From Bryoerythrophyllum caledonicum (lineage: Eukaryota > Streptophyta > Bryopsida > Pottiales > Pottiaceae), in contig OZ020514.1 of NCBI GenBank assembly GCA_963971425.1, positions 21,921,406 through 21,985,405 of the forward strand: a stretch of DNA of 64,000 nt, read 5' to 3'. The notes beneath the pieces were generated by a model that was given only the letters and a program-made list of their open reading frames with translations, was not told the origin of the DNA and made no database searches. This document shows, piece after piece, positions 7,527 to 28,020 of the stretch. The stretch's first letter is position 1. Each line of letters opens with the position of its first letter. Both the position numbers and the translations under genes were made by a program.

Positions 7527-7545
7527 CGTTGGCTGTCAGCCGACG
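7527..7545. repeat. Tag-1 palindrome in ParB-like gene intron
   Basis: CGTTGGCTGTCAGCCGACG lies between the 7461 exon end and the last exon. One arm has a C-to-T change at CpG. Confidence 0.85.
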
Positions 7546-8627
7546 TTATGACATCCCATCACACTTGATTGTATTCCTTGTGATTGTTGCAGGAATTTTG
7601 CAAGAATCACTTTACTCTAATCATGAGTAAGGCTAAAGACGTGGAGACAAAGAAGTTGCCCTTGGTTTTTGTTCCAGATGACCTCTACAACAAGTGGCAA
7701 GTGGTTTTCACCGCTTGGCAAATGGGTCAATGAATTGAGGAGAATGGACAACCTCCACTCCAAATTCCTCGAATTCCGTAGCGGGACATCATATACACGG
7801 ACCTTTTGTAGTTTGTCAACTTGCGTGACAAGGAGTCCATGAAGCTGGTTGAGGCGATCCTAGATAAAAAGGTTTATATTAAGGTCAACGCAGGAAAGGA
7901 GAAGGGGGCCGTTGGTGTGTCGGTGAAATCGTGGGTTAAAGACCTGAAGATGACCTACATCATAAAAAATGAATTGATGCTGAAGTACCGTAGTTATCCA
8001 CTGAAGAAGCCTGAAGAGGCCACTTATGTTCTGTTGGCGTATGAGCAGTTCACGTTGCTCGCTGCTGAGAAGGTTATCAACGATGAAACCATTGATAACA
8101 TCAGACGCGAGTTGGAGCAGTGCGATGCCGGCGCAACATTCCTGAAGGGCAGGAACAATAAAATTACTCCAACAACTTTTGAGGCCCCATCAGAGTTTTG
8201 GGCGACCGTGAAGAAGTACGCCGTTCCATGTGATGAGGATCTAGTTGATAAGTTCGTTGTTTGCTTCGAGGTTCGTATTGTGAAGGGGCTTGTCGAACTG
8301 GTGAAGAAGATGGACGACAAAGGAGACGTCCAACTCGAGAAGGGGGCTCGCGAGATGTTCGTTGTATTTCGATTTGACGAAGCAGGTAAATCAATCTTTA
8401 TCGTCAGAGACCGGCTCAAAACAGTTGTACAGAGGGTGTTGCGAAGGAGTGATGATGATCAATGTGAGCACTTTGCTCCTACAATTTTTATTACTGACGA
8501 CAACTCCAGTTTTCAAATTGAGACGGAATGTTGCGGTTCGATCGGAGTTTGTGCCGTTCACACTATTCAATACCTCCCTGAGAGTATCAGGAAGTTCAAG
8601 GTTCGGCCATGCACGACATACCTTTGA

Positions 8628-9064
8628 ACGGATATTTAACTAAATATGGACGAAACAAAGTCCAGAAATGAAAACGAGTCACAAACAAGTCATTGAGAAA
8701 TAAATACAGTCGGCGGGCAATAAAGGCCAAAGTGATACAGCAAGAAAAATTGAATGGACAAATTTGATGTTAAAAAAAAAGAAATACCAGTTGCAAAAAA
8801 GAGACGTATATTGATCAAAACAAATTACAATGTCGGCTAGCAGCCAATCAAAAAGTTGAGATCTTGAGAACTAATAATTACAACTGCTCAAAATAAAAAC
8901 ATCCTAGAATAAAGTTAGTCGGAAACTAATGACACGTACATGGGAGCCCTAAATCAAATTATACAACACAAATGTTCACTTTCATGTACTTTACAAAATG
9001 CAACCTTCAAATCACGGACAAAAACTAATTTGAAGACCATCGGCTGGCAGCCAAAGAAGAAGAC
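8628..9064. other. 3' intergenic segment between convergent genes
   Basis: It separates the ParB-like stop at 8627 from the FCPb-L stop at 9065. It carries tag-1 copies at 8831-8849 and 9039-9055. The reverse complement is homologous to 35494-35938 and homology stops about 5 bp beyond the ParB-like stop codon. Confidence 0.7.
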
Positions 9065-11154
9065 CTAGTACCATTCGATTTCGTCCCATCGGACAACTGT
9101 GCGCCCATACTCACGCGCCTTTGAACCCATCCAATGAGCCTGACGAGGTCGATGTGCTTGCTTCAAATATTCAGGGACGCTTGAAAATCTGTGGAGCGGA
9201 TAAATGAAGGGAAGGATGTTGGTCGCCACATTAGGAATAACTTGGTTGTCGTCTTGAAGGCTCAAATGACCCTTAAACGGCCAGGAAATATAACAAATGT
9301 TGTTGGGGTTTTTCCGGAGAGACCTTAGGTTCACATCCACGAACAAAACTTGATGAGGCAAGTAGACAGCACGCAAATGATTCTTCTTAGAAAGAATAGA
9401 CATCTTTTTGTAACTCCAAGGGAAATTTATGCTCTGAGCTAAGTCTCGTCTGCTATAGACAAATGACAGCCTATCGATAACACCAACCAGAAAAATATGC
9501 CGCAAGACTACTTGTAACTCCTCCACTGGCAATGTTGACGAAAGTGCGACGTTAAAGCACGGCAACAACATATCAGAAAGCTTTTTCAAGCTCGGCCGGC
9601 GAACAATATTCTCACGAGTGCAAGAACCAGAAGTTGGCACACGTGGTTTTTCAAAGCAAAGGAGCCCATTGACACAGAGGACAACACACTTTCGATACGG
9701 TGAAGGGATTCCATATATGCATTTGAAATAAAAGGATGACCCCTGGAAAATAAAAAAGAAGACAATCGTCAGGATGCCGAATATTAAGGACGGATGAAAA
9801 CACTACACTGTCGTTTGCCAGTCGACGGTGCATAACAACGCACAGGATCATCATAAGAGATGAATCACAGACATGTTATAAAGACAATATATATACACAA
9901 AAAAATTGGAATGAAAAAATATATCTTAAGATCGCAAAAATAAAAAAATCAGAAGGTTATAAAGGTTAAGTTCCTGATTTTCGATAGCAGTAAAGAAGAA
10001 GAGAAACTCGGAAAAGCCCATTGGAGAAAAAAGGGATATTTAGTTCGAGTAGGCAATTAACATCATGGATACCACTTCATTGGGACAGTATGGCGCATCG
10101 AAATCCAAGGCGTGGGAATAGATGACCTCCCTACACTTTTGATGTTAAAACGACCCAGGGTACACTTGAGAAGTTTTGAATTCCCAATTTGAAGAGCAGT
10201 GTTCCTGAACATTGACTCCAGACTTCAAAAGTCTCGAGAGCCATGGAATTAACGCACTCAAGAGATACGGCTGCATCCCGGGAACTGAGATCTCTGGAGT
10301 ATTGTATTTAAATAGAGAAGGATGAACAACATTAGAAGGGCTATTGAGGATATTTTGGAGAGGAAAGGGATCAGCGAGAAGCTTGTTCCGCTCATTAGCA
10401 TCAGGCCTGATTGAAAAGCGTCTATCAGAAAACACACGGGCCAACCTCTTGAGTAGTGGCGCAACTAAAGTAGTGGGATTCTTGGCCGCGGAGGAATCAC
10501 AGTAGGTAGTGCCCAATACTTTTGTGTCCCTTCACAAGTCGGAGAAAACATTGAACAAGTGATCCATGTGCCGATGAATATCTCTAGACTTATCGGTTGA
10601 CAAAAGGCCAATGAAAAGGACGACTGGCAGAAAGCAAAGAACTCTTCAAGCCCAGGCCTAGATTATTGGTGAAAGCTCTTCCTCTTAGCATTGCCATGAC
10701 AAATAAAACTTTTGGCGAGTAAAAGCCTCCTTAGTTCAAGGACGAGGTAGTAGCTTGAAGGACCCACCTGAATGTTCCTTGGAACCACATCGGAGCTGAG
10801 GTCGGCAGTAGGTACTGAAGCACATGAAGGAGTTGGCTGGGAGCCAACAACATTGGCACCGATTAGACAAGCACCATCCGAAACAAAATTGCCGATGACT
10901 ACCTCCTCGATGTAACAACGGGTGGAGCCAGAAACAATAGCGACATTCCCAGGACGTATCGGTGACACAATCTCAACTACAATAGTCGGTTTGATTACAA
11001 CTACAGGCTCCCTGCCACGCTGAAGTGAGCATTGGCCTGAATCGACATGAAATCCACGACCGCAAGAGGCACCACGGACGACTTGATGCTCTAGTCTCTC
11101 GTAATCATTCAATAGTGATTGGAAGTCGCTGAAGCGCGGGGAGATGTCCGTCAA
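9065..11154 (-). CDS. FCPb-L: FCP1/NIF-like HAD-fold gene, modules 3 and 4
   Basis: The start (MTDISPRFSDFQSLL) is set by similarity to the N-terminus at 33577 and to the DIDLT region of the 19290 gene. Module 3 has YYLVLELRRLLLAKSF near 10700 and a terminal part 10516-10145 (CDSSAAKNPTTLVAP). An intron near 9780-9900 with a TTTTCCAG acceptor and a tag-1 copy leads to module 4 (about 9760-9065), with VVLCVNGLLCFEKPR and HQVLFVDVN. FCP1-family phosphatases use D-x-D-x-(T/V). Here the first Asp is E or C and the second is R or N, so I infer an inactive phosphatase fold. Frame breaks between modules 3a and 3b (10517-10662) suggest an unmodelled intron or decay. Module 4 resembles the second domain at 21182-21781, which also has VNGLLCFE. 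Confidence 0.6.
9809..9828. repeat. Degenerate tag 1 in the intron between FCPb-L modules 3 and 4
   Basis: TGTCGTTTGCCAGTCGACGG. The corresponding intron of the nested element's FCP gene instead carries three tag-2 palindromes (20939-21113). Confidence 0.6.
10832..10848. repeat. Tag-1 palindrome inside the FCPb-L coding sequence
   Basis: GTTGGCTGGGAGCCAAC (10833-10848 with flanks). On the minus strand it is read V-G-S-Q-P-T in an open frame. The array R counterpart (33977-33995) differs at the centre so that the Gln codon becomes TAG. Confidence 0.8.
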
Positions 11155-11380
11155 GTCAATGTCTCCCAGATGAGTCGCGATGCCAAGTTAGTGTGAAATT
11201 TCCCCAGAAACTCTGACTTCATGGAATGAATTTTGCATTTGAAGTCAATAAAGTAGACATATATGGATTCAGTGAGGCACCAATCGTAAATGATTGTTCA
11301 AAAAACAAAAGAGCGTTATTACCGAGAAAATTACATTTATAGCAAGTCAATAAAGGTCTGACAAAATGAACATTTAAGAG

Positions 11381-11399
11381 CATTGGTTGCCAGCCGACG
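11381..11399. repeat. Tag-1 palindrome between FCPa-L and FCPb-L
   Basis: CATTGGTTGCCAGCCGACG lies just past the FCPa-L stop at 11408-11410. It corresponds to 33419-33437 in array R. Confidence 0.7.
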
Positions 11400-12308
11400 C
11401 TGCTATCCTATGAAGAAGAAATGCTGAGACGCATCGAGTTGGGGTAAGCTTTGACGTATTCTGCCCACTTTGGGTCATTGGGCCATAGAAGAGGATATCC
11501 AGTCAAATCGATGTTCTCACAAATATACTCACGGACAGGCAATCCCAATGAAAGCAAATCGGAATGGAACTAAATGACACCAGGAAGAACGACATTATTC
11601 ACGATCTCCTTGGAAGTCAGATCGAATGTCAGTGGATGCATCACATTGAAGGGACTGTTTCGGACATTATTGAAACGGCAGTCGTCAAAAAGATGAGTGC
11701 TTAGGCTATTTGCTCCTGTGCCTAACAGGCCGGACGGATGCAAAAAATAGGGTAGAAAGCCTACGGATATAAAGAGTCCGACCATTGAACGATGTGGTTG
11801 AAGCGTTGCAGAAACTGTTGTGGAAACAATGTCTAATTTGTCTAACAATGCCACACTATCCTTCAAGACCTATCATTTGTAATTTCAAAAAAGAGCTGGA
11901 TTGGTCACTCCAAACTGCCACAGTGAAGTTGGAAACATAGAACTCGAGAAACTCTTTGAGCATCGGCTGAAAGATGGTATGCCATTTTTTGTCGGCTCCA
12001 ACACCTTGCGCCATCAAGAGACCGTTCAAAGATAGGACAAGGAAGTACTTATTGACTCTCTCACATGGTCCGGCGCGGAGCAATAAAGACCACTCACTTG
12101 CGTTGCCAACTCCAGGATTAACCCATAGAAATGAATGGATAACGATGCATGAATTAAGAAACCATCAAGTGCATAGGAAGTTGAGATAATTACAAGCGAT
12201 GTTTATTATGGGTAAACATTCACACAAAGATAATATCACTGTGCGAACTCAAAAATAATAATCCATTATCATGACAAAAGTCACGAAAAGAAATGGAATG
12301 AATTTCAG

Positions 12309-12328
12309 CGTCGGCTGGCAGCCGACGG
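12309..12328. repeat. Tag-1 palindrome, perfect copy
   Basis: CGTCGGCTGGCAGCCGACGG lies in the FCPa-L intron between modules 1 and 2. The array R counterpart (32658-32677) reads GTTGGCTACTTGCCAAC: both outer C-G pairs changed to T-A. Confidence 0.9.
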
Positions 12329-13255
12329 ATTGACCTAACGTCTACTTGGAAGTGACCTTGGACGCTTCTCGCTTGGAAAGGACCAAATAAACTACTCCCA
12401 CTCCGGTTGTCCTAGAAGCAATGGAGGGTTCCCCGGGACGGCTACCAGCAAAGTTTTACAAGGGTCGACAGGCTTAGGTTCAAGGAAGGTCACCCTGCGG
12501 CCAAGAGGCACTCAGCGACGACGGCAGCATCAGGCACGACCGTATCCACACTGGCTGAGAGCTCATCATTCAATTCTGGATTTGCAACTTGAGGATGAGG
12601 ACAACGAGGCTTGTCACTCCGAAAGGGCTCGGCAAACTTCTTCACCATGAAAAGTGGTCCACAGTTGAGGTGTACTCGGGAACAGTCCAATCCAATTCTT
12701 TCATCGCACTTTGAAAGGAAACTATCACCGAGAGAGCTTGTCTACTCTCGCGGGCAGTCTTAGTTGAAGTGAGAGTGTAGGGCATTGGATGAATGGCATT
12801 ATATGGAGAATTCTTGACGTTCGAGTACGGATGAACGTCAATCAAGTGGGTGTTCGCCCTATTGGCTCCTTTTCCTATTAATTCCCCATAACTAAGAAGT
12901 AGCGTTGATAGCCTCTTGAGATAGAATTTCTTGACATCGACAGTATACCGAGCTACATCGCAAAGGATATTATCAAAGATATGTTTGATTCTGTGAAGAA
13001 TGTAATCAAACTGATCTTGCAGGTCATTAAGAAGAGTCTCCACTCCAGCCGGACTTTCGGAACTCCAACTCACGACAGTAAAATTATCAAAACAGTATTT
13101 GAGAAATTGTTGGGTGTGAGGCCGGAACTTAGTAACGCGGTGATCGCCATGCGTGAGATCCAAATCATTCAATTCAAACACAAGGAAGTAATCTTTGAGG
13201 GGTGTCAAACCCAACTGAACCATGGGCTCAAACGCTTTGGATTCTCGATCAGCAG

Positions 13256-13259
13256 CAAC
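13256..13259. other. Left target-site duplication (CAAC) of the nested element
   Basis: CAAC here matches 22403-22406. The empty paralogous site in array R (31724-31728, GGTTT on plus) reads AAAC on the corresponding strand. Confidence 0.75.
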
Positions 13260-13287
13260 ATGCCACATTTAAATAAATCTGGACTTT
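13260..13287 (+). repeat. Left terminal inverted repeat
   Basis: It pairs with 22375-22402; mismatches are at positions 4, 5, 14 and 20 of 28. Its inner part is also one arm of a hairpin at 13272-13321. Confidence 0.85.
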
Positions 13288-13321
13288 TGAAAGTCTAGAT
13301 TGGTCAAAGTCCAGATTTATT
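13272..13321. repeat. Perfect 16-bp hairpin overlapping the left TIR
   Basis: AATAAATCTGGACTTT (13272-13287) is repeated as AAAGTCCAGATTTATT (13306-13321). The right end has only a looser equivalent, with AAGTCC pieces near 22356-22380. Confidence 0.8.
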
Positions 13322-13358
13322 CAAGGAAAATCTAACAAAATATGATATAGAGGTGCTT

Positions 13359-14121
13359 CATAAGATCCTATGATCTAACAAAGATGGTCATTAAATTTTG
13401 AAAGTTAGAAACTTCACAAGAGAAACAATTAATAAATTGTAGGAATGTGTGATGTAGCAAGTGACCTTGCAAGGATAGGAGAATCATAGTAGAAGTGACC
13501 TTGCATCACAGGATAGGAAGATCCTACCATCACCATTTATTAGTACTATTGGAAGTGAGAAGAATAATGTATTTATTGCATCTACAGTGAGAAACAAACG
13601 TAGCATATAAGCACTTCCACTAGAAACAAAAGTATTTGAGGAGGGGTAATACATTCTAAAGAAATTATGACATCGCCTAGGTTTATGTACATGTGAGCAT
13701 CTTACATAGGCAGCTAGAAGAAGCAGGATCGTAGGATCCTGCTATCTCATTGGAAGAGTTTTAAGGAAATTACCAGATAATAGTACTGTTTAAATTGCAT
13801 CAAATGGCAGGAAAGTAACGTAGCAGAGTAGCAGTTAACGGTAGAATCAGAAGTATCTGAAAAGAGCTCATACATTGTTGACAATTAATGACATTGCCGA
13901 ATTATATGCATTATAATTAAAATAGATGTACACATTTATCATAGATAGCAAGGAGCAACAAAATCGAAGGATCCTACTATCTTGCTAGAAGAGTTCAAGA
14001 AAAAGACGAGCGATGAGAAAACTGTGCTATCTTGCTGGAAAACTTCTACGACATCACAAGTCCTGTTGTGGAAAGTCATAGCTGGATTTCGAGGAGGTCA
14101 AGGTCGCAGGATCCTACGATA
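13359..14121. repeat. Left subterminal block: five tag-2 palindromes in tandem duplications
   Basis: Tag-2-like sites lie at 13359-13375, 13512-13531, 13728-13747, 13962-13981 and 14102-14121, each centred on AGATCCTA or GGATCCT. Segments 13545-13760 and 13780-13995 are diverged copies of each other, spaced about 235 bp; each ends with the tag followed by a TATCT..(G/T)AAGAG phrase. No gene is seen here. Confidence 0.8.
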
Positions 14122-14437
14122 TTGCTAGAGAACCCTAATACCATCAAGGGTCCGCCACGTTTGCAGCTTCAAGATTAGCCAATGCTGCAATTCGGTCCCT
14201 CTTTGGAATCGTGCGGGTCTTAGAGTTCATTCTACCCGACGCGGAGGCAAATACGACGGCATCAACATGAACTTGAAGTGGACGTCATTTTTTCGGAACC
14301 CACGTTGCTGCCCAACAATCCTCATACTTCTTCTTGTGGTTTTTCAATTGATTTCTCGGCTCCCAGAATTGGATAATGAACTTTCCATATTCCGCATGCC
14401 CTCTTTCACAATTGACTGCTGAACATGCTCTCCCTAA

Positions 14438-17400
14438 CTAGACGGGATATATTTCGGGGTCAGAAGGACGGAGTAGGATCCATGATCCCACTCCGACATC
14501 TCGCCATGGATTCAAGGCGTCCTTCGGTCTCTCTTTCCTTGGGCCACAATAAAGTTCAGGTTCGTCATCTTCAGGTTCGTCATCTTCAGGTGTGACATCT
14601 CGACTGGTAATGAGGCACAATGGAGCTGGATCTGTGGCTCTCCAATCATGAATTGGCCAGAAGCTTTCTACGAAGGCCGCAGGAGTGGGAGGAAGAGGTT
14701 TCTCTAGTTCTGCAAGTATTCCATTCCAGTACTCGATATAAGGTGGAAAATCCTTACGAAAGCCCATACTTTCAAGCATCCCGCGTTCCCAGAATTCTAT
14801 ATAACCTCGAATTCCACACTTGATGAACGACCTCTTATCAAGGGCTTTGGAAACCTTCTCTCTTGCCTTCTCTGGATTGCCTGTGGAAGAAGGAACTTCA
14901 TCGCCCCACAACCGCTAGAAAGGTACAGGATTTGGGAGCCTGGAAGGTAGCATCGGTTTTCCGTCAGCATCCTCCTTCCAAAGACGGATAGCAGGCTTGT
15001 CTCTGGGTAGCCAGTGCGCATGAACTACAAGTTCCTTAAATCGCATGACGGGCCACCCTTCTTCATCTACGTAGAATTTAAAGAGGTGCATCTCTCCTAA
15101 GCCAACAAGTCTGTCAGCACCATCACGAATATAACCATGGACAAAAGATTTGAAATCAACAACCTCTCGAACAAACTCGGGCATAAAACAGCAAGTCCTG
15201 CGACTGCATGAAGGACATCATCAAATCCGCGACAATATAAGTATTCTGGTTCTTCAAGGTCTTGGATAAGTGGCTAAAGTAAGCATCAATATCCTCATGC
15301 GTGTGCCCGACTAATAAGAAACCAACTTGGATTTCTTTGAACACCCTTCGATAAGTCAACATCGATAAAAACGCCATGAGAAACTGGTTCTTATTGTCCT
15401 TTGCAGAGTTGTCAAGCTGCAAATATAACCTTTTTAAAAGGGGGACGGGTACAGTCGAGTTATTCGTTACCGGAGGTAAGAGCTGAATACATCTGGACTT
15501 CCCTCTGAGCATAGCTTCAAAGAAAGAATTGGCCGGCTCATGGGGAATAATTCTACGAGATTCACGAATGGGTGGTTCTTTGAGACGCCAAAGCAATCTC
15601 GCAAGGGAGGAGATAGTATAATTAGAGTCTCATGGCCACAAGTCAGTGGAGTAGTGAGCATAGGCACCATCTCCATGACCGTGCGTGACCATACCGATGA
15701 CGTTCATTGGGAACTGACCCAAGGGTGATGTGAGTTTGGTAGAAGCTCGCATACGAGGAATAGTTGTCTTGGCTGTATCCATTTTATCGTGGATAATACA
15801 AAGAATATTGCCCTTGTGCCGCTTCCACTCTTCTCTCCAGGTAGGGTACACACGCCTACACGAAGCTTAAAGGTTGCAGTGGGTTCGTTTCTGCTTCACG
15901 AACGAATTATATTCGACGGAACCCTTAACTGATGTGTCGATGTACTGCAATACCGTGTCACAGAGGATGCACTTTGCAAATGAGCTCCCAACGGATTTAA
16001 CCGCAACATTATTGAAGTGCTTCCTTCTGATTCTACTAACAGCGGATTGCGAAACCGCGGGCAACCCGCATTGTAGATTCGACTGCAAAAGAGTCAAAAC
16101 ATTGAGTGCGTCAGGTAAGTGCCCAGTGAGAATTGAACATAAATCAGATTGAGGATAACCACAGAATGGGAGGACTGTAAGATTATAGCATACCCTTGGC
16201 GATCGTAGGATCCTACCATGAACTAGATGTATAGAGCAAAGATAGAGGGTCTTTCAGGACATTATCATAATCATGAGGTGCTTAAAGTACACGTGAATGC
16301 AGAAAAGTGGTTCATGTGGTGTACTATGTAGAGTAATACCTCTGTGGCGTCAGCCTGGATCTTCTTCCAACTATGTCCAGAGGGTAGAAACTTTAGAGTG
16401 TCCATCCGCCTTGGTACTGTCAACCTCATCTGATTGGGCATGTGATCAGCACTCTCATTGATGATAGCCGTAATCGTACCAAGTGCTTGCACGGTTCCAA
16501 GGCGGGGTCGTTTGACGTCTTTGTTCCCGTGCGTAGAGGAAACGATACCCTTCTTGTATTGGTCCATATATTCGTGAAACTTTGATTTCGGTATGCCATG
16601 GATTTTGTACCACGCTGTAGCGCAAATATCCTGACCTAGTAAAGTGACATACTTTTGTTTCCGATTGTTGCCCATATAGCGTAATTGTCCACCCACAGAC
16701 CTTGCATAATCCCGGCGTTCGTCAAAGTCCTTCAGCCAAAACATCTGGCGAATGAAAAGGGTATCTTGGGGCCTGATTAAGCGCACGCATTCATCAGAAC
16801 AACATGATTGCGAACTCACTGCTTGAATTTCTTCCGGCATAGTCTTCTTAGCGAATGTGTTGAGCTTCTCCTCAGTCCGCTTTTTGCGACGAACAAACCG
16901 GTATGGTGCTTTTGGGCGGCCACCCAGGTGCGCATTCGCGTTCGGTGCGTCAGGTAGACGATTGAAATGGTCAAGCGTATCGCTAAGACTATGTCCTCCT
17001 TCGAATGCGCAGTCGGAAATGGGCCACCTCCGATGACTCATAATGTCACTAGGATCTCCGATGAAAACGTCGATTACTGTGACGCCAATGTTCCCCTCCC
17101 CCAAAGTACTATTTTCGAACAGCTCATCTGGATAGACGCAATTAATGCGACCAGAGGCCATAAGATCCCCATCACCGTTAAACCGCTTCACAACCTTCTC
17201 CACCCACTCTGCCTGAGGTACAAAAGGAGGAGTGTTTGTGGACCCAGAAGTTTTGCCTAAGGCCGAAGTCAGGACAAGGCTTGCTGTCTCCTAGAGAATT
17301 GTTCTACCAATTGATTCAGCCAAGACAGAGATGCCCTCCTGCATTGGATGAATTAGTAGACTTCGCGCCCGTGCATGTATCTCAACAGGTCGAAGAAGAG

Positions 17401-17674
17401 TCAATTCCGCGAACGTGATATCAATGTCGACGCCCAGCCAACACCTAGTAGGAATAGCTTCAATGACAATGGCATGTCCAACAACGCCATGTCCAAGGTA
17501 GCATAGTAAAACACTCATGCCCGGTTCATATCGGTTTTGCACGTCATTGGCATCAACATCAGGGTTAATGCTCGTAGAATCAGTAAACTCATCGTCCGGT
17601 CCGCAACTTGAAGACATTAAAGGCAACCGGAAAGAAATGGATCCAATAAACCTTCGATTGGCCCTGGTCTTCAA
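14438..17674 (-). pseudogene. DUF7869-type gene, copy C (candidate transposase of the nested element)
   Basis: Exon 1 (17674-16340) includes CCSDECVRLIRPQ, FIRQMFWLKDFDERRDYA, CATAWYKIHGIPKS, HGNKDVKRPR and TVQALGTI. A GT..AG intron (16083-16339) contains one tag 2. Exon 2 (16082 onward) has NVAVKSVGSSF, THGHGDGAYAHYSTDLWP, then the DUF7869 core with LYLQLDNSAKDNKNQF and GHTHEDIDAYFSHLSK near 15300. The end (14911-14438) has PLPPTPAAF, an acidic PEDDEPEDDEP stretch and ALNPWRDVGVGSWI. The LDN..HTHxDxD arrangement resembles an RNase-H-like acidic triad, but that is inference. Inactivating changes are TAG 17291-17293, TAA 15867-15869, TGA 15630-15632, a 1-nt shift near 15190 and TAG 14915-14917. 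It shares a divergent intergenic region with the FCP gene at 19290. Confidence 0.75.
16201..16219. repeat. Tag-2 palindrome in the copy C intron
   Basis: GATCGTAGGATCCTACCAT lies in intron 16083-16339, the position at which copies A and B carry tag 1. Confidence 0.85.
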
Positions 17675-19144
17675 TCTCCTGATGAATAAAAAATCGTAAG
17701 AGACAAATCAACAAATCAAGCCTGATGATACTAGATCGTAAGATCCTACGATGAACCATGATCTCAAGCTCACCCGTGATTTCCAGGTTTTGCGATCATC
17801 CCAGAGTATCAACAAATTGATCGTAAGATCCTACGATTGTTCGGTAACTCCTAAACGATCATAGGCGATAGTAAGATCCTACGATCATCCGAGAGTATCT
17901 ACAACATCCACATTCCTCGTTCGATACCGAACCAAAGAGATCGTAAGATCCTACGATCATTCCAGAACCCGATTTCGATCCTCGGTGATAGTAAGATCCT
18001 ACGATCTTCCAGATTACTCGGATGCCCTCAAAGCCCGTTTTCATCTACCACGAAATAGATCGTAGGATCATACGATCTTAAAATGACCCATGACAGATCA
18101 TCAAAGATAGTACTATCCTACGATCATCCGATATTATCATACGACCACCTAAGATCGTACAATCATCTTGACTGTACGGAAAGTACGTTTACGAACACAG
18201 TAATAGCTACTGAACTAGTTCATTTAAGCAATGGCAAAAGTTGATTCCACCACAAGTATGAGTAGTTTATAGAATATGATATAGACTAATTTAAAACAGC
18301 AAATACTTTACAAACCACCGCAGCATCTCACGATTAGAATTAGTTTTGAATCTATGATTCTGACTCACTTACAACAGCATCAACTCTGAAAACCACGGCG
18401 GCACTTGCATTTTTAAAATATTTGAAAACCTTCATGCGTAGAAAGTGGGGGAAGGAGAGAGTACCGTAGATTGTGATGGAACCGGAGAGAGATGGATCAA
18501 TACTAGCAGCGGGACAACAATGAAGCGCTCGATCAACTTGAGAAGCTCAGATCGACGTGATTGTGACGCTCACATTGATGTGAATGTGACGCTCACATTG
18601 ACGTGAAGGTAAAGATGAGCTTACAGCTTATAGCTCGCTACCTAAACTTGACAGAACATGACGAAGAGGTGTCGAAGTAGGTGAAGCCCAAGCTCGACTA
18701 AACACAAAGACGATACCGCATTTCTGACGCTCTAATACTCCAAGTTTCTTCAAAACACAATGCTCTCAGTTCTTGGGCAAATACAACTCTCTCAAACTCT
18801 AACTCTGCTGGAAATGAACTCAAAATGTTTGAACACTAAAAGCACAGCAACCTCTTCTTGATCTATAGAAAGCGGGAAGTTCATCAAGAATAGGTTGAAT
18901 CCTTGGCGGGGATAGAATCACAATCATTTTCAAGGACGTGGAGAGCTGTACGAGTGCCACTTCGAACGTAATTATTTCCAAGACGGAAAATGACAACAAC
19001 GGAGACAAGATAAAATATATTAGTAAAATTGTTCTTAAATTGTGGGAATGTCCAGTGATCATGAAGAACACACGTGTTTCAGTAGTACTCATGAACTTAC
19101 GAGAATTCGTCATGGTTACAATCATTAACCTGTTAGACTAGGTT
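17675..19144. promoter_or_regulatory. Divergent promoter region of the nested element
   Basis: Between the 5' ends of copy C and the FCP gene. The proximal half holds the tag-2 array (17734-18125). A short direct repeat GTGACGCTCACATTGA near 18560-18602 follows. No convincing ORF; the short frames at 18820-19141 lack any recognisable domain. Confidence 0.6.
17734..18125. repeat. Phased tag-2 array, about 120-bp period
   Basis: Seven 20-bp palindromes start at 17734, 17819, 17867, 17939, 17987, 18058 and 18106. From 17819 the spacing alternates 48, 72, 48, 71, 48. The first of each pair starts GATCGTA, the second GATAGTA, so the unit is a two-palindrome repeat of about 120 bp. A decayed half-site follows at 18153. 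Consensus GATCGTAAGATCCTACGATC. Confidence 0.9.
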
Positions 19145-19285
19145 AATAGTTCAGGGTTCTAGGTTCAGGGTTTAGAGTACAAGATAACAGACTCAAACTT
19201 CTAGGTTTAGGGTTCTAGGTATAGGGTTTTAGGTTTGGGGTCTTAGCTTCAGTGTTTGGGGTTCAGGTTTCTAGGATTAGAGTTA
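19145..19285 (+). promoter_or_regulatory. Degenerate TTTAGGG (telo-box-like) array before the FCP gene
   Basis: About a dozen GGGTT(C/T)TAGG / GGTTTAGGG-like units end 5 bp before ATG 19290. It is either an interstitial telomere-like tract or a 5' UTR/promoter element; the sequence alone does not decide. Confidence 0.5.
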
Positions 19286-19289
19286 GGAC

Positions 19290-20781
19290 ATGGAGACTAC
19301 GACGGATAATGAGCAGCACTCTGTCGCGAATACACTTGCTACGTTACAGGACATTGATTTGACTGTTTCACCCCCAGTAAGTAAAGCGCCGTTCGATAGG
19401 GAGCTTATCATAGGCATATTCGAGGAGGCTAGTCAGTCACTACAGGCCTTCAACCCTCCTAGGAATGTTTCGAATACACCTATTGTTGAGGACTACTTGG
19501 ATGACCCTTTGAATTTCAGTCAAGAAATTCAGCCAACAACCTTTAGGATCGTCCCAAGACCTGATGTTGAGGCTGATGCTGCTGAAAAGGGTCCTCCATC
19601 CGCACAACATACCGATGCAGGACCCTCTGCAAAAGGTATGAGCTATTAAATTCTACCATGTTGTTGTTTTCTGTGTATCTTTTATGTTCTATGTTCACAC
19701 TATTATCCTCAGGGGAATTCAGGATCGGCGATCCTTACGGCCATCGTAGGATCTTACGATCGCTTTGGATAGTGTAGTCTTTTTCGTTCCTATTGGGATG
19801 GTAGGATCCTACGATTCTAATGGGATGGTAGGATCCTACTATCCTTCAGCACTGTTGTCTCGAATGCTGGAAATTTATAAGTATTCTGAATGGCTTTTCG
19901 GTCGTGTATTCTTCACTAATTACCTCCTTTTTTTCGGCAGTTGAGATGTCGGGGACTGCTTAACGTCGTGTAAAGGTTCCATTATCGGCGGCACATAAGG
20001 GCTCTGGTTCCTCTAGAGAAAATATGATTCTAGACAATTCTACTGCTTATTATTAGTTTTCTGAATTGGAGACTCATGCTTGCAACGTTTGTTTTCTGTA
20101 GGAAAACTCAGTGCACCAGCCATTAAATCAGCCCCTAGATCAGCAAAGGTAAGGCAACCTTGGTACATTGTTGTGCTGGACTTGAATGGCTTTCTGATTC
20201 ATAGATCATACGATAAGGGGCGTAAAACTGTCGCTAGACCTGAGTGTGCAAATTTTCTGAAGGTGCTGACAAATAAGGCTACTATCGTGGTATGGAGTTG
20301 CGCCATGAGGAAAAATGTTGATAGCATGTTACAGGTGGCTTTGGGTAGTTCTACTGTAAACCTAACAGTTATGTCACAATCTGATATTGCGGAGTCGAGC
20401 TTTCCGAGAGCGGGGAACAATGTTGAGAAGAAGTACATGCTCAAGGACCTCAGAAACGTCAGGAAATATGTTGACCACGTAGACCTCAATCTGACATTGC
20501 TCATTGACGACAACCCGGAGAAGAACCTCCTCAACGATGAGTTCAGTGCGATTCATCCTCAAACGTCGACAAGTGACCTGAAGGACAAGTTCCTCATGAA
20601 CACTATGCTTCCATGGCTCGAGAATATGTTTTCCTCAAATCTCTCTGTGGCCGAATATGTCCGTAACCATCCCCTTCCTGGATGTCCGGTTCCTGGAGAA
20701 GTTAGGTCCACTACGTTGGCTCAGAACATCGTAATTGGGTGTTCCCGAAAATGGAATTCCAAAGTCGGGGCATTTCAATGA
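19290..20781 (+). CDS. FCP1-like gene of the nested element: N-terminal region and domain 1
   Basis: ATG 19290 opens an acidic N-terminal exon (TLQDIDLTVSPPVS) with a donor at AAAG|GTATGA (about 19636). A small second exon begins after TTCGGCAG (about 19942) and has a TAA at its Gln-like eighth codon. The main exon starts after TTTTCTGTAG at 20101 and encodes IVVLDLNGFLIHRSYD, ATIVVWSCAMRKN, LTLLIDDNPEKNLLN and IHPQTS, the normal order of an FCP1/NIF domain. Of all modules here this is closest to catalytic: the nucleophile Asp is kept (D-L-N-G), but the second Asp is Asn. Introns hold tag-2 copies (19742-19843). It is equivalent to module 3 of FCPb. Whether it is spliced to the 21155 exon is unresolved. 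Confidence 0.65.
19742..19843. repeat. Three tag-2 palindromes in the first intron
   Basis: CATCGTAGGATCTTACGATC (19742-19761), GATGGTAGGATCCTACGATT (19797-19816) and GATGGTAGGATCCTACTATC (19824-19843). Confidence 0.85.
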
Positions 20782-20938
20782 CTACTCACTCGTATCGGTG
20801 ATGTGTATATTTTGTATATTTTGTTTCAATATAAACTTGTAGGATGTACCTCTACTCTATCAGACACTCTTCAGTATTGAGGCCATCATCTTATTTTGAA
20901 TATTATTAATCGCAATATCTCCCATGAATTATCCTTAG

Positions 20939-21113
20939 GGTGGTAGGATCCTATGACCCTGAAGAATGTAGTTGTTAAGGATACTGTATGATTTTTGTGA
21001 TGCAGATAGCAGTGTGGTAGGATCCTACGACCCTCATGGATGGAGTAGTTAAGGATGTTGTATGGATGATTTGTTTGTAGTATGGATGGCAGTGTGGTGG
21101 GATCCTACGATGC
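20939..21113. repeat. Three tag-2 palindromes between FCP domains 1 and 2
   Basis: Centres GTAGGATCCTAT at 20939-20959, GTAGGATCCTAC at 21014-21033 and GTGGGATCCTAC at 21094-21113, spaced about 75-80 bp in diverged direct repeats sharing AAGGAT..TGTATG and GCAGTGTGGT phrases. Confidence 0.85.
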
Positions 21114-21154
21114 ATGATGTTGTTTATAACTTGTATCTTTCTCTATGATCACAG

Positions 21155-21781
21155 CGACGCGACGACTCGACAAAAGTTATCGTGTTGTCTGTCAACGGAT
21201 TGCTTTGTTTCGAGCAATACGATACCTGCTCCCCGCGACGCTTCAATCGGAACAACATCATTAATTGGCCTGGTCTCCTAGAGTTCTTCAGTATACTTAT
21301 GAGGTCGTTCCAAGTTGGTATATGGTCGTCCATGGTCCCCGCGCGCCTGAAGAAGGTCCTCGAAGTCCTCCTCCCCGAAGACATAAGGTCAAGACTTCTT
21401 TTTTGTTATGGACGAAACAAGTGTTCAAGGCCACAATTGTATCCTTTCTGTGACAAGGTTCTTCAGAGACTCTCAACGGACCGGAAGACGAAGCAGTTCT
21501 GTCTTCCTGACAAAATATTGATGGTTGATGACATGCCAATGAGTCATGTCTTCAACGGAGACCTCGCTTGCTACTTTCCGAAGTCATGGCATGGTGAAAT
21601 GACCTTACCCAACACATTCAATGTTATACCTAATATTGGCACAGCGTTGCTTCCGTTCATCCTTCCACTGCGATCTTACGCCTCGGTGAAGGAGTATCTG
21701 CGGGGGCACCCGATGGATGTAAAGTTTAATCGTAGACTCCTTGAACCATGGCACTTTGAGCGAGTGTTACGAAGTACGTAG
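21155..21781 (+). CDS. FCP1-like domain 2 of the nested element
   Basis: It begins after a CACAG acceptor at about 21154 and runs open to the stop at 21781. It has VIVLSVNGLLCFEQYD, FQVGIWSSMVP, KILMVDDMPMSHVFNG and VIPNIGTALLPFILPL, and matches FCPb module 4 along its length (VNGLLCFE, SRRDL-like loop, ALLPFI.PL). The catalytic D-x-D is S-V-N, so phosphatase chemistry is not expected, though the VDD acidic pair near the C-terminus is kept. It may be the 3' exon of the 19290 gene or a separate gene. No in-frame stop is seen in this exon. Confidence 0.65.
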   Translation, partial: RRDDSTKVIVLSVNGLLCFEQYDTCSPRRFNRNNIINWPGLLEFFSILMRSFQVGIWSSMVPARLKKVLEVLLPEDIRSRLLFCYGRNKCSRPQLYPFCDKVLQRLSTDRKTKQFCLPDKILMVDDMPMSHVFNGDLACYFPKSWHGEMTLPNTFNVIPNIGTALLPFILPLRSYASVKEYLRGHPMDVKFNRRLLEPWHFERVLRST

Positions 21782-22190
21782 TCGGTTCCCTACAGTGAGT
21801 TCTGTTGGCGTTGGTTTTCATCCAGTTTATTCTATGAATATATTTTTTTGATAGTCATCACCCCCATTCTCCATGCCTTTTCGGTTGCTTATTTTTTTGA
21901 TGTGTACTACATTGATTGCCCTACATGTATTGTTACACCGTAGGATCTTACTATGTACGCTATGTATCTTGAGCGAGTAATACAAAGTATGTAGCCGCTT
22001 CCCTACATTCAGTTCTTGAGCGGCTTACTTTTGTTCAGTATACTCTATGAGTAAAGTTATCAGTGGTTCATACCCCCATTCTCCGCGCCTAATTGAATGC
22101 TTCTTTGTTTGACGTGTACTACATTGATTGCCCTACATGTGTTGTTAGATTGTAGGATCCCACTATGTAAGCTATGTATCTTTGATCGCC
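21757..22190. repeat. Right subterminal tandem duplication, one tag-2 site per unit
   Basis: Units at about 21757-21970 and 21971-22190 share GAGCGAGT, TTCCCTACA, CACCCCCATTCTCC and ATTGATTGCCCTACATGT. Each ends with a degenerate tag 2 (21947-21965, 22150-22170). This mirrors the 235-bp duplicated block at the left end. Confidence 0.8.
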
Positions 22191-22374
22191 AGATCCCACC
22201 ACATTGTTTGATGCCTTTTAAACTTCATCCCTAAGTGAATGTTGCAGTTACCCCTAATCTGTAGGCTCAATCCTATATTTATTGAAACTATTCCTGATGC
22301 CAATGGTAAGACCGTATGATTTCATGATCTTGCATCCTACATCAAGAATTGATCCTAAGTCCAAAATTCGTCTT

Positions 22375-22402
22375 AAAGTCCACATTTACTTAAATGTCAC
22401 AT
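22375..22402 (-). repeat. Right terminal inverted repeat
   Basis: Inverted partner of 13260-13287, followed directly by CAAC (22403-22406). Confidence 0.85.
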
Positions 22403-22769
22403 CAACCTATTCCACAACACCAGAAGCAGCAAGTACAGGAGTACTAGTCCCCTGATCAGCTGATTTAAAGAAAGACCATTTACAGGACATTGGATCCTAG
22501 GTCGGCTATCAGCCGACGGACCGACTTGAAATATTAGACAAGGTTAGGGAATAATTCATAAAATCAAACATAAAATTAGCAATGTACCTGAGCACAAGAT
22601 CAAGAAGGGTTTATAAATATTTCTGAAATTTAGTTGCACGCTAGGTCACTAAATTCTGAAGCTATTGTAAGCTAACTAACAAACCAACCTCCGCATGGAT
22701 TGCGTGCGCGATCCACGTGAAGAGACAGGGCTCGTTAGGGAGATCTTTGCCATCGAGGGTCATTGGTGT
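22403..22769 (-). pseudogene. 5' portion of FCPa-L, separated by the nested element
   Basis: Plus-strand 22407-22520 matches the reverse complement of 31614-31724, including GACATTGGATCC and a tag 1 at 22500-22518. Sequence 22620-22766 matches the exon at 31367-31500 (PMTLDG, then an indel relative to array R). The exon is cut at 22769 by the LTR-like element, so the N-terminal part equivalent to 28342-31366 is missing. Confidence 0.75.
22500..22518. repeat. Tag-1 palindrome
   Basis: GTCGGCTATCAGCCGAC lies in the FCPa-L intron. The array R equivalent is at 31614-31632. It is the first tag 1 outside the right end of the nested element. Confidence 0.9.
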
Positions 22770-24559
22770 TGTAGAGCCAAAATCCTTAAAATAGCTTTTT
22801 TCAAAAAATTAAGTGTAAAAAGGGTTGTAGACATATGGAGAATCAAATAATTAATGATTAAGTTTACACTAAATATTTAATTAATCAAGAAGTACCTATT
22901 CATATCCAAGATATAAGGATTAATGGGAAAAGGGTTGAACTCGCACCCTTTGGGAAGGGTGTTCCTTTTCATGTATAGATATGAATAGATGTGAGGATTT
23001 AGTGGAAATAATCTTAATGGTTAATTATAGGAAAAACCGTTTTTCGAAGAGGTGTGCCTTTTGGATTTGAGTAGAATGACTAGCTTGAATTTTTAGCATT
23101 CTTTGCCATTACCATAGACATTCATTGGAGGAAGATTGGAGTGAGCCCTAGCTTAGGTGAAAAAGCTAGTAATTGAAGAAATCTCTTATGTTGTAAGAGT
23201 ATTATGTTATGTGTGAAATTATTAATATATAATTATTATTGAATTTGCATATGTAAAGTCTTATGTGATTTAAATAATATGTATAATTGCAATAATATTA
23301 GTTCTTCATAGAATAAATTTGACATTGTGTTTTGTAAATGCAATTATATGCATGAGGTATTAATTGTGAATAAATTCCTATGCATAAATGCATTATTTAT
23401 TTAGATCATCATTGTAGAAATTAGGATATCATCCTAATTATTTATGTGACATGAAATTGTGTGTATTAATGAATTAAATTTAATATATTGCATATGAGTG
23501 AAATGTGCATACTTAATAATTAAATCTTCAAGAGATAAAGTTAGGGAAAGATCCTAACTATGTCAAAGTGACATTGTGAATATTAATGTAATAATTCTAA
23601 GTGTATGTAAGGTATTTAGAAATTAATTTGGAGTAAGAAACTTAATGCATTAATGTGAGGAATGCATAAGTAATTGATGTAAGACTTAAGTTTAAGTGTG
23701 GAAACTTAAGTACTAAGACATAAGACGGGAATATTATGCATGTGTAAATAAGAAAACTTAAGTCCACAGTGAACAAGGACTTAAATATAAATGACAGAAC
23801 TTAAATCTGAGTGATAAAACTTAAGTCTAGAGTGAGTAAGAACTTAAGTATAAATGACAGAACTTAAGTCTGAATAATAGGACTTAAGTCTACAGTGAGG
23901 GAAAACTTAAGTCTGAGTGATAGGACTTAAGTCTAAGTTACAGAACTTAAGTCATGTAAGTGAAAGAGTGAAGATACTCTTTTTGCATTTAAGTGTTAAG
24001 GATTAATAGATAGATTAGACTTAAGTCACGACTTAGAGTAGAAATATTTAGAAGCTTAATCTAACTTGTGTGTTGTTCGAGTCTAACACTTGTGATGAGT
24101 ACGTGAGTATGTGAACCGTGGGACGTACGTGAAAAGTGGAGCGAATTGCACAAGGTAAATTTGTGAATTCGAATGGAATTAATTAAGGAATCAACCATGA
24201 GTGCAATGGATAGTATCCAAGAGCCAAAGATGGCAAAAGTATAGGAAACTAACTAACGTGCATATTCATAGTTAAATCAAAAGCAAGGGTCTTTAGAGGA
24301 GCAAGGCTCTATCTAAGCACTTAAATCTTTGGGATTAATACCTTAAGAGTGGAATGTTAAGTGTGATATGTTTTAAGGCTTAATTCCCTAAAAACGAGTG
24401 CGTAAACTTAAGTAATTCAATAGAAAGATAACTTTTGACCTATAATTAAAGACAAACTACTTAACGGTTGACGCTAGACCATCCCGGAAAGAATTTAGAA
24501 TCATGGAGAGACTTGTGTGAGTCTTGGGTGTTTTGCGAATGTGAATTTTATGGTTTACA
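22770..24559. mobile_element. Solo-LTR-like element, 1.79 kb
   Basis: It begins TGTAGAGCC and ends GGTTTACA, the same termini as 38285-39619. Both also share GACGCTAGACCATCC, GGAAAGAATTTAGAATCA and ACTTGTGTGAGTCTTGGGT near the right end. TG..CA ends and lack of coding sequence fit a solo LTR. Flanking 5-mers GGTGT and GGTTC do not match, unlike the perfect ATGTG pair of the related copy. It sits where FCPa-L and DUF7869 copy B both lose their 5' parts, suggesting recombination between LTRs at different loci. Confidence 0.65.
23690..24060. repeat. Minisatellite inside the LTR-like element
   Basis: About ten or more diverged iterations of AACTTAAGTCTGAGTGATAG-type units (ACTTAAGT core). Confidence 0.75.
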
Positions 24560-27500
24560 GGTTCAACCACCAATTGAAGCAACCTTCGCTTCAGGGGTCA
24601 AATGTGATCAATTTCAGTATCCGGATCGACCACAATGGAGGAACAAGTACTGCCATTTACTCGACAATAACTTCGCATTAGTTGGGCGGGCAATGATTCA
24701 AGTTTGCCTTCCGCACGAGGCATGTGATGCGGACATATTGGGTGACACTGACGTTGGCGTTCTCTTTGTTTCTGAGCATGAGGATCTTCACATGACCACG
24801 CTACGTTGGAAGATTTTGCGCACGCGCGTGGAAGGTGGTCCACTGTTGTCTGAGTGCCTTATCTACTGTTCTGAGCACAATCAAGCCTCATGTAAAGATG
24901 ACGGGCTCGAGAGGGTAGCCAAGGATCCATACAGAGGTATGAAACGGAAGCTTAAGTAGAAGAGCGATGTTTCTGTTACCAAGTTTGGGCGCCTCTAGTC
25001 AAAAGTTGCTTGTCAGCTTGTTAGTTCGAAAAAATGTTGTTCGAGACGATGTTGTCAGATATTATTTTGGGCGGACACTTGTAAAATCTGCCAGTAGTTC
25101 TACTCCTCAAGCTTTGAGCAACGGCATGAAACTGCGTTCGCTGTTTAGGGCGAGCTCTACAAAGTTCCGGGCTTCAAGAAACTCTTCATCACTCTACATG
25201 GCGTCGATGTTTGTGAAGTTGTCTGGTTTTGCATTCATGGCGTTTTCAACTACAAGTATAAATCGGATTCATTGAACGGACGCGTAAACGGTTGTCATGG
25301 AAATGCTGGAATTTTGCGCCCCAGGTCTCAGACTGTTCAGGCTCGTGGGACCATTTCCAGAATCATCAACGATAATGCCGACCACATGCCGAATGAGTTT
25401 CGAGTCATCGGCAACAAGAGGGTCGCATCTCTGATGGTTCTACCTACGGCGATGAACTGGAATCATCTCCGTCACATGTCCAACCTGGTAAGGTTTTACA
25501 TTCTTCCTACTTGCACATGTGACTTGCACATGTAACCCATACTGTCGGTTGGCACCAGATGCATGTTTTTTTTTGCATCTCTCTAATTCTGCATTATTAA
25601 TCTTGATCGCTTTCTCTGTCAACTCCAGGTGAACTTTGAATGTTGTGTCAAGCCGATTTCGCAATCTACTGATAGTCGATTGAAAAGGAAGTTTTTTCAG
25701 AATGTTGAGGTAAAGGCTATTGGTAGCAACTTTTCGAGATGTACCGAGTGTAACTATCTGGTTGAGTTTCTTGCCAAATATCCTCGCGGGTCTGGCGAAT
25801 GGCACGCACTCCATGATGATCATGCGATGCATCTCAACTACCAAAGTACTTGCCGTAATGTGTACTTTGGATGGACATCTCAGTCCAATAATTACCCGTC
25901 AGAGTTTCTCTGCATTATTCACCACAAGATGGACACTTTGAAGACGGCCATTCCAAGAATGCAGAGGATTACAAAGGCGACCGCGGGTCTTGCACAAATT
26001 CCTATTTCATGTACTGGCGTGCTTACTCACGGTCATGGCAACGGTGCATATGTGCATTACTCGTCATATTCCGACGTCCTTATAGCCTGGGGACTCCAAT
26101 GTCACAATCTCGTCTATCTGCCATGTTCTTCGGGCTTTAGAACGCTGCCCTATGCAAGAGTCTAAGCAGCTTTTTGCATATCCACCTCAGAATCCATTCT
26201 TTGAAGCTCTTATTTGTGGTAAATTCAAATGTAGTTCATCGATTCCAGAATCTAGGGGCGATCCCCTCCCAATTGCTTCGCTGGCTCAACCGGAAGTTAA
26301 GCTTCCTTGGAAGCTGTATCTCCTACTTGATAACTCTGTAGAGGATAACAAGATCAGGTTCGTCATGGCCTTCTGTTCGCTTCTCACAGCTAGACGAATT
26401 TTTAAGGAAGTGAGTGTGGGATTTCTGATTGTCAGCCACACTCATAAGGACATTGACGTACATTTCAGTTTCCTTTCAAAATTCATCAAACGGGAAAATA
26501 CCTACTGTTTAGTTGACCTCATGAAATCTTTCATGGACTCTCATAAGACAATAGCCTTTATTCCTGAACTTGTTGAAGAGGTTGCTAATTTCAAAAGTTA
26601 CATTGTTGATTACCATCTTGACGGCAAGAATAAGCTCGTTGATCTCGGTGAGATGCACCTTTTTAAATTTTACGTTGAAGAGAAAGGTGAAGACCCGAGA
26701 TGGCCGGTCATGAGATACAAGAGAAGTGCAACAGATTCATCATGGCTCCCTCCGGATGAGGCTCATTTGTTTTTCGTCCATGTTCTGTTTGCTATCATTT
26801 TCTGCCGATTCTCTTGTTACTTACCCGTCGGCTGCCACCCAACGGATTTGACCTTTGCTTCTTTTGTCCTTCTTTCCTTTGTATTCATTGCTTTTTTGTT
26901 TTTGTCTCACTTTTTTGTATTTTGCAATCTGATAAGCCTGTGAAGATGTGAACAACAGATAAATTCGGGAATCCTAACCTTTAATCGGTGATCCGAAACC
27001 AATACCCTTCAAGCCGCTTTGGGATGACGTTCATGTCAACAAATCGAAGCATAACCAGGAGAAGGAGCGGCAAGAAGCGTAACCAGGACAAGGGCCACTA
27101 GAAATAGCAAGAAGCAATCCTTTATCAAGAACGATATTGTAACGTATATTGAGTTCTAGAGGACAGACATGGCTCGAGACAAAACATATGTCGAGGATAT
27201 GGCACCTTTCATTGCATATTGGGAGCGTCTTTTACAGCTTATTTCTGGTCCTCTCCCTCCTAACCCCAACTGCCTATGTGAAGGATTCTGCCCAAAATCG
27301 GACATGATGCGTAATCATGGTCGCGCAACGTCACTGTCCGATGCAATTAATTCCAGCTCGGATGTTATACCTGAAGATGAACCTGACCCTTACCCTTACT
27401 GCAACCCACAGATGAGCCGTCCGAAATTGTCCTTCAATCCGTTTTGTGATGTTCTTCTTGGTGATTTTGTTTTTTGCCGACCTCGCACTGGCCACTACCT

Positions 27501-27782
27501 TCTTGTGTGGATGGGTCGGTACTGGAGTGCGTTAACTACACACCTGGGTATTCCTATAGGAAATTAAAGGTAAAATGGTGGGTTCCACTCACGACTAAGA
27601 AAGATTCTAAGATCATCGGAAAGGAGTGCTGGAATAGGCGGTGGGAACGGGAACAACGCGACCCGGATGTTCAAAATTGCAGTATCGTTCTCTTCACCCA
27701 TTGCTACCCGTCTCATAATAAGCCTGGGCCGCCAAAGATCCATCGTATCCCACCTGGAGCAGCGAGCGCTGCAATGGCTTGA
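24560..27782 (+). pseudogene. DUF7869-type gene, copy B
   Basis: The gene starts abruptly at the LTR edge. Exon 1 (to 25487, donor CTG|GTAAGG) holds HLLDNNFALVGRAMIQ, CCSRRCCQ, HGVDVCEVVWF, HGNAGIL and TVQARGTISRII. Intron 25488-25628 carries a degenerate tag 1. Exon 2 (25629 on) has NVEVKAIGSNFSRC, THGHGNGAYVHYS, then the DUF7869 core with LYLLLDNSVEDNK and SHTHKDIDVHFSFLSK near 26430-26490, and LVDLGEMHLFKFYVEE. The C-terminal part (27169-27782) has PLPPNP, PEDEPDPYPY and KWWVPLTTKK. Stops at 24957, 24996, 25095 and 25146 and frame changes near 26150 and 27520 indicate a pseudogene. At 24996, 25095 and 25146 copy A has CAG where copy B has TAG. Confidence 0.75.
25543..25560. repeat. Degenerate tag 1 in the copy B intron
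   Basis: GTCGGTTGGCACCAGAT, clearly degenerate in the right arm, at the homologous intron position to 747-764 and 16201-16219. Confidence 0.5.
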
Positions 27783-28020
27783 TTGGAGGCAGGTGGCATC
27801 GTTGTTCATGGCAGTGGCGATTGATTGTTTTTCTGGTCGGCTGCTAGCCGACGGATTGATGTTCTCTACAATGTAATTTGTTCACCATTTATTAATTTGA
27901 ATGTTGCGTGGAACAGTAATATCTGCCGTACTTCAGCCATTACTACTTTTTTCATGTAACTCATCTGACGGGATCTCAATCTGAATAATTGGTGTTTTTC
28001 TTGTCGGCTGCCAGCCGACA
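26826..28020. repeat. Tag-1 palindromes at 26826, 27836 and 28002
   Basis: CGTCGGCTGCCACCCAACGG (26826-26845), GTCGGCTGCTAGCCGAC (27837-27853) and GTCGGCTGCCAGCCGAC (28003-28019, perfect). They lie in a presumed intron and the 3' flank of copy B. Confidence 0.85.

Follow-up and report, generated by a model that had tools for sequence, protein, structure and literature searches.

Sola DNA transposons encode a DDD transposase, generate 4-bp target site duplications (TSDs), and carry terminal inverted repeats (TIRs) of 11-1124 bp, according to the available part of the published account (PMC10741241). The same part gives their length as mostly 2-9 kb, sometimes over 15 kb, and lists them in the moss Physcomitrella (PMC10741241). 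A giant member of Sola1, Sola1-1_Ec32 from Ectocarpus, is described in the accessible portion of its report as 21.5 kb long, with a 1104-aa accessory protein that is encoded on the strand opposite the transposase and contains ParB-like and DNA methyltransferase domains (PMC12477816). In amoebozoa, Sola2 elements that carry Fanzor1 as a passenger have TIRs of 12-21 bp, AT-rich 4-bp duplications and, in one family, a transposase of 888 aa, as stated in the sections at hand (PMC3627910). A 4-bp TSD is also given for Ginger1 in the excerpt available (PMC10045372).

The locus analyzed here lies in a 64,000-nt stretch of contig OZ020514.1 of Bryoerythrophyllum caledonicum (the window), to which all coordinates refer. 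Element E1 occupies 13260..22402 (9143 bp) and is very probably a copy, shortened by an internal deletion, of a TIR DNA transposon that has two genes, is 16.6 kb and more in length, and uses the DUF7869 protein as its transposase. Its boundaries were drawn from TIRs, a TSD, and a paralogous empty site. The 28-bp termini ATGCCACATTTAAATAAATCTGGACTTT and ATGTGACATTTAAGTAAATGTGGACTTT agree at 24 of 28 positions (left repeat at 13260..13287, plus strand; right repeat at 22375..22402, minus strand) and are flanked on both sides by CAAC (13256..13259 and 22403..22406, both plus strand). A paralogue is unbroken across the insertion point, with 11882-13263 aligning to 33103-31721 (84%) and, on the other side, 22418-22770 aligning to 31714-31359 (81%; both blastn). 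Once joined, the flanks realign to this paralogue with a single 1-bp gap within 10 bp of the junction. The initial annotation had fixed the boundaries by these three signs, namely the matching termini, the CAAC duplication, and the contiguous paralogue, and all three were reproduced.

The DUF7869 protein and FCP1-like domains that had been named as the content of E1 were recovered with Pfam. The DUF7869 gene, encoding the putative transposase, lies on the minus strand at 14438..17707, contains in-frame stops, and was delimited from its open reading frame pieces, the Pfam match, and its collinearity with 24465-27567. DUF7869 (PF25273) was detected at 15156-15629 with an E value of 7.9e-31; with a TGA read as a residue, the core carrying the D..D..E/D motifs extends over 15156..15866 on the minus strand (alignment; PF25273, E 7.7e-37). 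Two NIF/FCP1-like domains (PF03031) are encoded on the plus strand, the first at 20065..20781 with the motif DLNG rather than DxDx(T/V) (E 1.1e-13), and the second at 21149..21781 with the motif SVNG (E 2.4e-5). The palindrome ATCGTAGGATCCTACGAT occurs 18 times (up to three mismatches) between 13728 and 22166, against a shuffle expectation with a mean of 0.00, and all 18 copies of the window fall within E1.

Further copies were sought in the genome (437 Mb, 894 contigs). This assembly contains an rbcL gene and, behind it, a frame recognizable as accD; the rbcL protein matched land-plant chains better (1013 bits each for 1wdd of rice and 1rlc of tobacco, for instance) than 1gk8 of Chlamydomonas (992 bits), in keeping with a host among the streptophyte green plants. 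A left-end probe of 181 bases gave 255 candidates, 40 of which were scored, and a right-end probe of 211 bases gave 83, of which 40 were likewise scored, E1 being included each time. The 39 other scored left ends start their match at 13254-13263, 22 of them exactly at 13260, and 26 of the 39 other scored right ends stop exactly at 22402. Termini lying elsewhere, a result that the initial annotation had named as refuting, did not appear among these scored ends. Under a pairing rule that required the same strand and a right end within 60 kb, 12 of 29 E1-type left-end loci were paired, and the remaining 17 had no partner among the loci located. Each of the 12 paired copies showed an exact 4-bp duplication, with 12 different sequences and differing flanks, in line with the 4-bp duplication proposed as a rule. 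An explanation of E1 as a host gene island or a segmental duplication, with TIR and CAAC arising by chance, could draw on the single copy visible to the earlier reader. It is rendered vanishingly improbable by the other scored ends, 39 left and 39 right, which fall at the same bases, and by the independent copies with different flanks and their own duplications in 12 of 12 paired cases, and chance repeats were rejected on the same recurrence of ends and duplications.

The claim of a complete 9.1-kb element did not survive the genome search. At the distance expected for a 9.1-kb copy, a right end was found in none of 20 other copies, and the paired copies measured 16,591 to 44,468 bp (n = 12); E1 is therefore short for its type. 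The longest of these copies would contain nested insertions. Compared with E1, a 16.6-kb copy shows 95-98% identity and holds an extra 7.36 kb in its middle, the deletion junction in E1 being at 19284..19285. Consequently, E1 is most simply a deletion derivative, and it is probably non-autonomous.

The gene interrupted by E1 is that of another element. Element B, an older transposon of the same kind and the target of E1, spans 8627..30062, as judged from its TIRs, its TSD, and the recurrence of B-type ends and TSDs genome-wide. It is 12,289 bp long when E1 and its second CAAC are subtracted. Its TSD, TTTG, stands at 8623..8626 and 30063..30066 (both plus strand), and a terminus scan of the window returned its ends as 19/28 matches at 8627 and 30035-30062, among other weak matches. 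The DUF7869 gene of B is broken, with pieces in two frames on the plus strand at 24465..27567 (Pfam, E 1.6e-30 at 26086-26943). Its accessory gene, with tandem NIF-like domains, lies on the minus strand at 9065..13268 and is split by E1, which inserted into this NIF gene and left the upstream part at 22418-22770. The opposed orientation of the two genes is the same as in E1. Only one of the B stretches scanned exceeded the Pfam cut-off for NIF (PF03031 at 12642-13268, E 5.7e-10).

A third element, C, interrupted by B, is likely to be present in the window. Its right part, a paralogue of B on the plus strand, occupies 30067..35937; the stretch paralogous to the E1-interrupted gene of B is 31359-35937, and the terminus at 35937, near which the right end is placed, resembles that of B. 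The NIF-like stretches of C remained below the Pfam cut-off (E 0.073 and 0.046). On the other side of B, 6838..8626 (plus strand) is likely the upstream part of the accessory gene of C, which would run on across B. By blastp, a plus-strand frame at about 7812-8627 shows similarity (E 1.3e-4) to the accessory gene found in the full-length E1 copy. A DUF7869 gene remnant on the minus strand at 37..1770, 85% identical to 24564-26282 (blastn), would also belong to C. No left end of C was found at its predicted place within the 2.3 kb examined. Since the interrupted gene belongs to B, which is itself apparently nested in C, the supposed host gene turns out to be part of a further transposon of this type.

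A search of the genome with the DUF7869 model returned 3,610 first-look candidates, 150 of which were scored; open frames of 1066-1087 aa were frequent among these. Two gene copies of a further family, E2, were 99.9% identical across 6.1 kb and diverged abruptly after ...GCGTGTT. The E2 terminus defined in this way had 1077 forward and 1099 reverse matches with up to three mismatches (2,176 in total; control 0). Twenty forward/reverse pairs 2.2-14.4 kb apart were chosen from the listed perfect sites, and an exact 4-bp duplication was present in 15 of them; two of the five pairs lacking one have flanks that are inverted copies of each other's. The B-type terminus had 327 forward and 328 reverse matches at the same threshold (655 in total; control 0). 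Ten pairs were chosen, with a spacing of about 16.7 kb in eight, and eight of the ten had an exact 4-bp duplication, one a 5-bp duplication, and one none. The expectation of duplications at insertions elsewhere was thus borne out for most chosen pairs in both families and failed for a quarter of the E2 pairs and two of the B-type pairs.

The termini of these elements are about 25-28 bp long and begin with ATGCC.. and AAC... Those of E1, B-type, and E2 agree with one another at 14-19 of 25 positions, and for the weakest pair of families 1,073 of 200,000 shuffles were equally good. E2 target sites tend to CAC-NNNN-GTG (8 to 12 of 15 per position), a preference absent from the target sites of E1 and B-type. 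Inverted termini with duplications of constant length at independent copies are the mark of a TIR (class II, DDE-type) transposon and were observed here. EnSpm/CACTA elements are defined by CACTA-type termini; this assignment was rejected on the ATGCC.. and AAC.. ends. Ginger1, with its Gypsy-type integrase, was also rejected, as no rve integrase domain was found and DUF7869 was the only Pfam match above the cut-off.

DUF7869 is common to E1, B/C, and E2. In the stretch compared, C1 plus the initial 14.56 Mb of C2, nine of 13 DUF7869 hits were located 1581-1622 bp inward of a perfect E2 terminus and were oriented toward that terminus; the other four had no E2 terminus nearby. The motif spacing D-x78/79-D-x38-E (x39-D) was fixed in all five proteins compared, for the E and the D alike, and the blocks DSN, DN..NKN, and GHTHEDID were present in all six alignment rows. 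In one intact protein, a frame of 1077 aa, the acids are residues 526, 605, and 644/645. As read, the order of the core (..DGMD.., ..HGIGLY..DSN.., QADN..ENKN, FLIVGHTHEDIDxxFS) looks integrase-like. The broken B copy has HTHKDID, with K for the E of the motif and the D kept. Because DUF7869 accompanies three families with different ends, keeps a constant position, and has a D-D-E/D pattern, the protein is very probably the transposase on sequence grounds, and the role suggested for it in the initial annotation is supported by these points.

Selection and structure were also considered. Between families, dN/dS was 0.09 and 0.16 in the two computable pairs, with dS nearly saturated; among recently diverged copies it was 0.53-0.62 (three pairs), indicating weak constraint. 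AlphaFold models were of very low confidence both for the E1 DUF7869 core alone (mean pLDDT 41.2) and for a 3-row alignment from the window (mean pLDDT 40.8). The DUF7869 profile retrieved no relevant solved structure from the PDB, the best match being ribosomal eL38 at E 0.17. No DUF7869 was found in viral contigs or prokaryote genomes.

A large gene opposite in strand to DUF7869 is present in the full-length E1 copy, in E2, and in B. In the full-length relative of E1, this accessory gene is a run of plus-strand frames, the last part of which corresponds to the two NIF domains of E1, and B and C each show a series of NIF-like stretches, about four by mutual similarity. When the accessory proteins were compared by blastp, no E value fell below 0.068 between E1 and E2, or below 0.003 (over 31 aa) between E2 and B/C. 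It is conceivable that DUF7869 is a passenger and that a protein not recognized as such, perhaps a portion of the accessory gene product, is the transposase, for the large opposite-strand gene likewise occurs in E1, E2, and B/C and its upstream domains are uncharacterized. We regard this as quite improbable: DUF7869 is conserved between E1 and E2 while their accessory proteins are beyond blastp detection, NIF is a known phosphatase family with its motif altered in E1, and 25 of the 29 E1-type left-end loci retain the DUF7869 end, matching E1 to at least 14888, inside the DUF7869 gene. No ParB-like or DNA methyltransferase domains were detected in the accessory gene fragments with Pfam or with tblastn against phages. 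By eye only, the short ParB-like strings VVIGGQHCVAAHRVL and WFIIDRQHTYSVCKEL were noticed in the accessory gene.

NIF (PF03031) comprises phosphatases of the FCP1/SCP type, to which both E1 domains and one B stretch are related by matches above the Pfam cut-off. Unlike these phosphatases, the E1 domains are encoded in transposons and have DLNG and SVNG in place of DxDx(T/V), a motif that is absent anywhere in either domain. Among five B/C stretches aligned by eye, three lacked DxDx(T/V) and two had a matching string; both strings are misplaced relative to the aligned E1 motif, one (DLDLT) lying a few residues beyond it, and both are uncertain. Because the active-site motif is altered, the E1 NIF domains are probably binding modules rather than phosphatases. 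The first of them matched nothing in the PDB at E 0.01, and the interrupted NIF stretch had no match in plasmids. The genome search for NIF gave 1,884 first-look candidates, and about 90 of the 150 scored hits, counted by hand, lay in frames of 281-292 aa; NIF is thus repeated in this genome, in part via mobile elements. Of 18 hits spanning model positions 1-153, 15 were found inward of a scored E1-type right end, at a distance of 1745-1879 bp.

The proposed mechanism follows the cut-and-paste route. DUF7869 would bind the roughly 25-bp termini, whose core is ATTTAANTAAATNTGGAC in E1 and nearly the same in B, and may cut them through an RNase-H-like D-D-E/D site. Joining of the ends to a target cut with a 4-bp stagger would then produce the 4-bp duplications. 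The other gene, on the opposite strand, encodes a large accessory protein, which in the E1 and B/C lineages ends in NIF/FCP1-like domains, the putative binding modules of E1.

The link of DUF7869 to transposons is new here: a protein family with no assigned function is now connected with the ends of mobile elements, in three transposon families from a single genome. The results also show that this green plant is heavily loaded with giant DNA transposons. Tandem NIF domains in DUF7869 transposons, catalytically dead by the look of their motifs, likewise appear to be new, and transposon-borne NIF domains could be miscounted as host phosphatases by annotators. FCP1-type enzymes are RNA polymerase II CTD phosphatases. 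A speculative and doubtful extension is that this giant plant DUF7869 lineage turned such phosphatases into tandem dead readers, which might direct the element, or the accessory protein that it encodes, toward chromatin under transcription or protect it against silencing. If this were true, the NIF expansion of the genome would be largely transposon-made.

As to classification, the elements could stand outside Sola as an independent superfamily, in which case DUF7869 would be a transposase lineage in its own right. No transposase family was found in Pfam, where DUF7869 was the sole hit above the cut-off, and none of the Pfam or NCBIfam transposase models matched the intact proteins scanned; DUF7869 is also not mentioned in the literature searched, most subscription journals lying outside it. 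A separate superfamily nevertheless seems rather unlikely, as the TSDs, the DDD-like motif, the TIRs, the size, and the opposite-strand gene all fit Sola and Sola1 as described in the available parts of the two accounts (PMC10741241, PMC12477816). The initial annotation knew of no described transposon family with this cargo. That claim was too strong as to the plan of the element, since the accessible portion of the report on giant Sola1 already describes a transposase and, opposite to it in strand, a large accessory gene (PMC12477816). For the cargo itself, no NIF/FCP1 cargo of transposons was described in the literature searched, a body without most subscription journals.

Compared with the described systems, the present elements share TIRs, 4-bp duplications, and a passenger gene with the Sola2/Fanzor1 elements; they differ from these in the passenger, and AT-rich duplications are a feature of Sola2 in the sections at hand (PMC3627910). 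They are larger than most Sola elements (2-9 kb), and NIF domains are unmentioned for Sola in the available part of its account (PMC10741241). Like Sola, they combine 4-bp TSDs and TIRs of about 25-28 bp with giant size. The accessory protein here has NIF domains, unlike that of Sola1-1_Ec32 with its ParB-like and DNA methyltransferase domains, as far as the accessible portion of the report goes. Sola is suggested by the 4-bp duplications, the DDD-like motif, and the long opposite-strand gene, and on these described features we consider the Sola superfamily the likeliest home of the DUF7869 elements, with a reasonable though not high degree of confidence. Within it, the nearest in plan would be Sola1-1_Ec32, which in the same portion of its report is likewise a giant element with a large accessory gene opposite the transposase strand (PMC12477816).

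The two oppositely oriented genes of E1, the internally deleted DUF7869 transposon copy at 13260-22402, are separated by a minisatellite with a 14-bp unit (GTTCAGGGTTCTAG) at 19149-19275. The breakpoint of the E1 deletion lies at the edge of this GTTCAGGGTTCTAG array, which is more extended in the longer 16.6-kb copy (L089/L090) than in E1. The palindrome ATCGTAGGATCCTACGAT, counted at up to three mismatches, occurs 18 times between 13728 and 22166, with every copy inside E1. Most of these copies fall outside the E1 reading frames, and the palindromes are possible binding sites for an element-encoded protein. Since the left end of E1 (13260-13320) contains an inner inverted repeat, AATAAATCTGGACTTT...AAAGTCCAGATTTATT, this end could fold back.

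Among the 40 E1-type left ends scored genome-wide, that of E1 included, 22 were located on contig C1, which makes up 15% of the genome (binomial p 5e-9). This contig might represent a chromosome that does not recombine, or a sex chromosome.

NIF-like stretches were also found outside E1. At 59036-60061 on the minus strand, further stretches resemble those in the accessory genes of B, an older element of the same kind, and C, a likely third one, and the one at 59363-59926 scored 18.4 bits, under the Pfam cut-off. Of the 150 NIF matches scored genome-wide, roughly 90 (a hand count) fell within reading frames 281-292 aa long and scored alike; these apparently form another repeated NIF family, distinct from the E1 type.

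The window additionally carries a retrotransposon at 45658-50040 with one open frame of 1460 aa, which we take to be of the Copia type, as well as the remains of a second retrotransposon at 39.8-43.7 kb. Elsewhere in the genome, two copies of the second DUF7869 transposon family, E2, lie 60 kb apart on contig C2 (3103752-3170198; L125-L128) with flanks that are each other's inverted copies, the kind of arrangement that would result if an inversion, or a duplication in inverted orientation, had taken place between elements.
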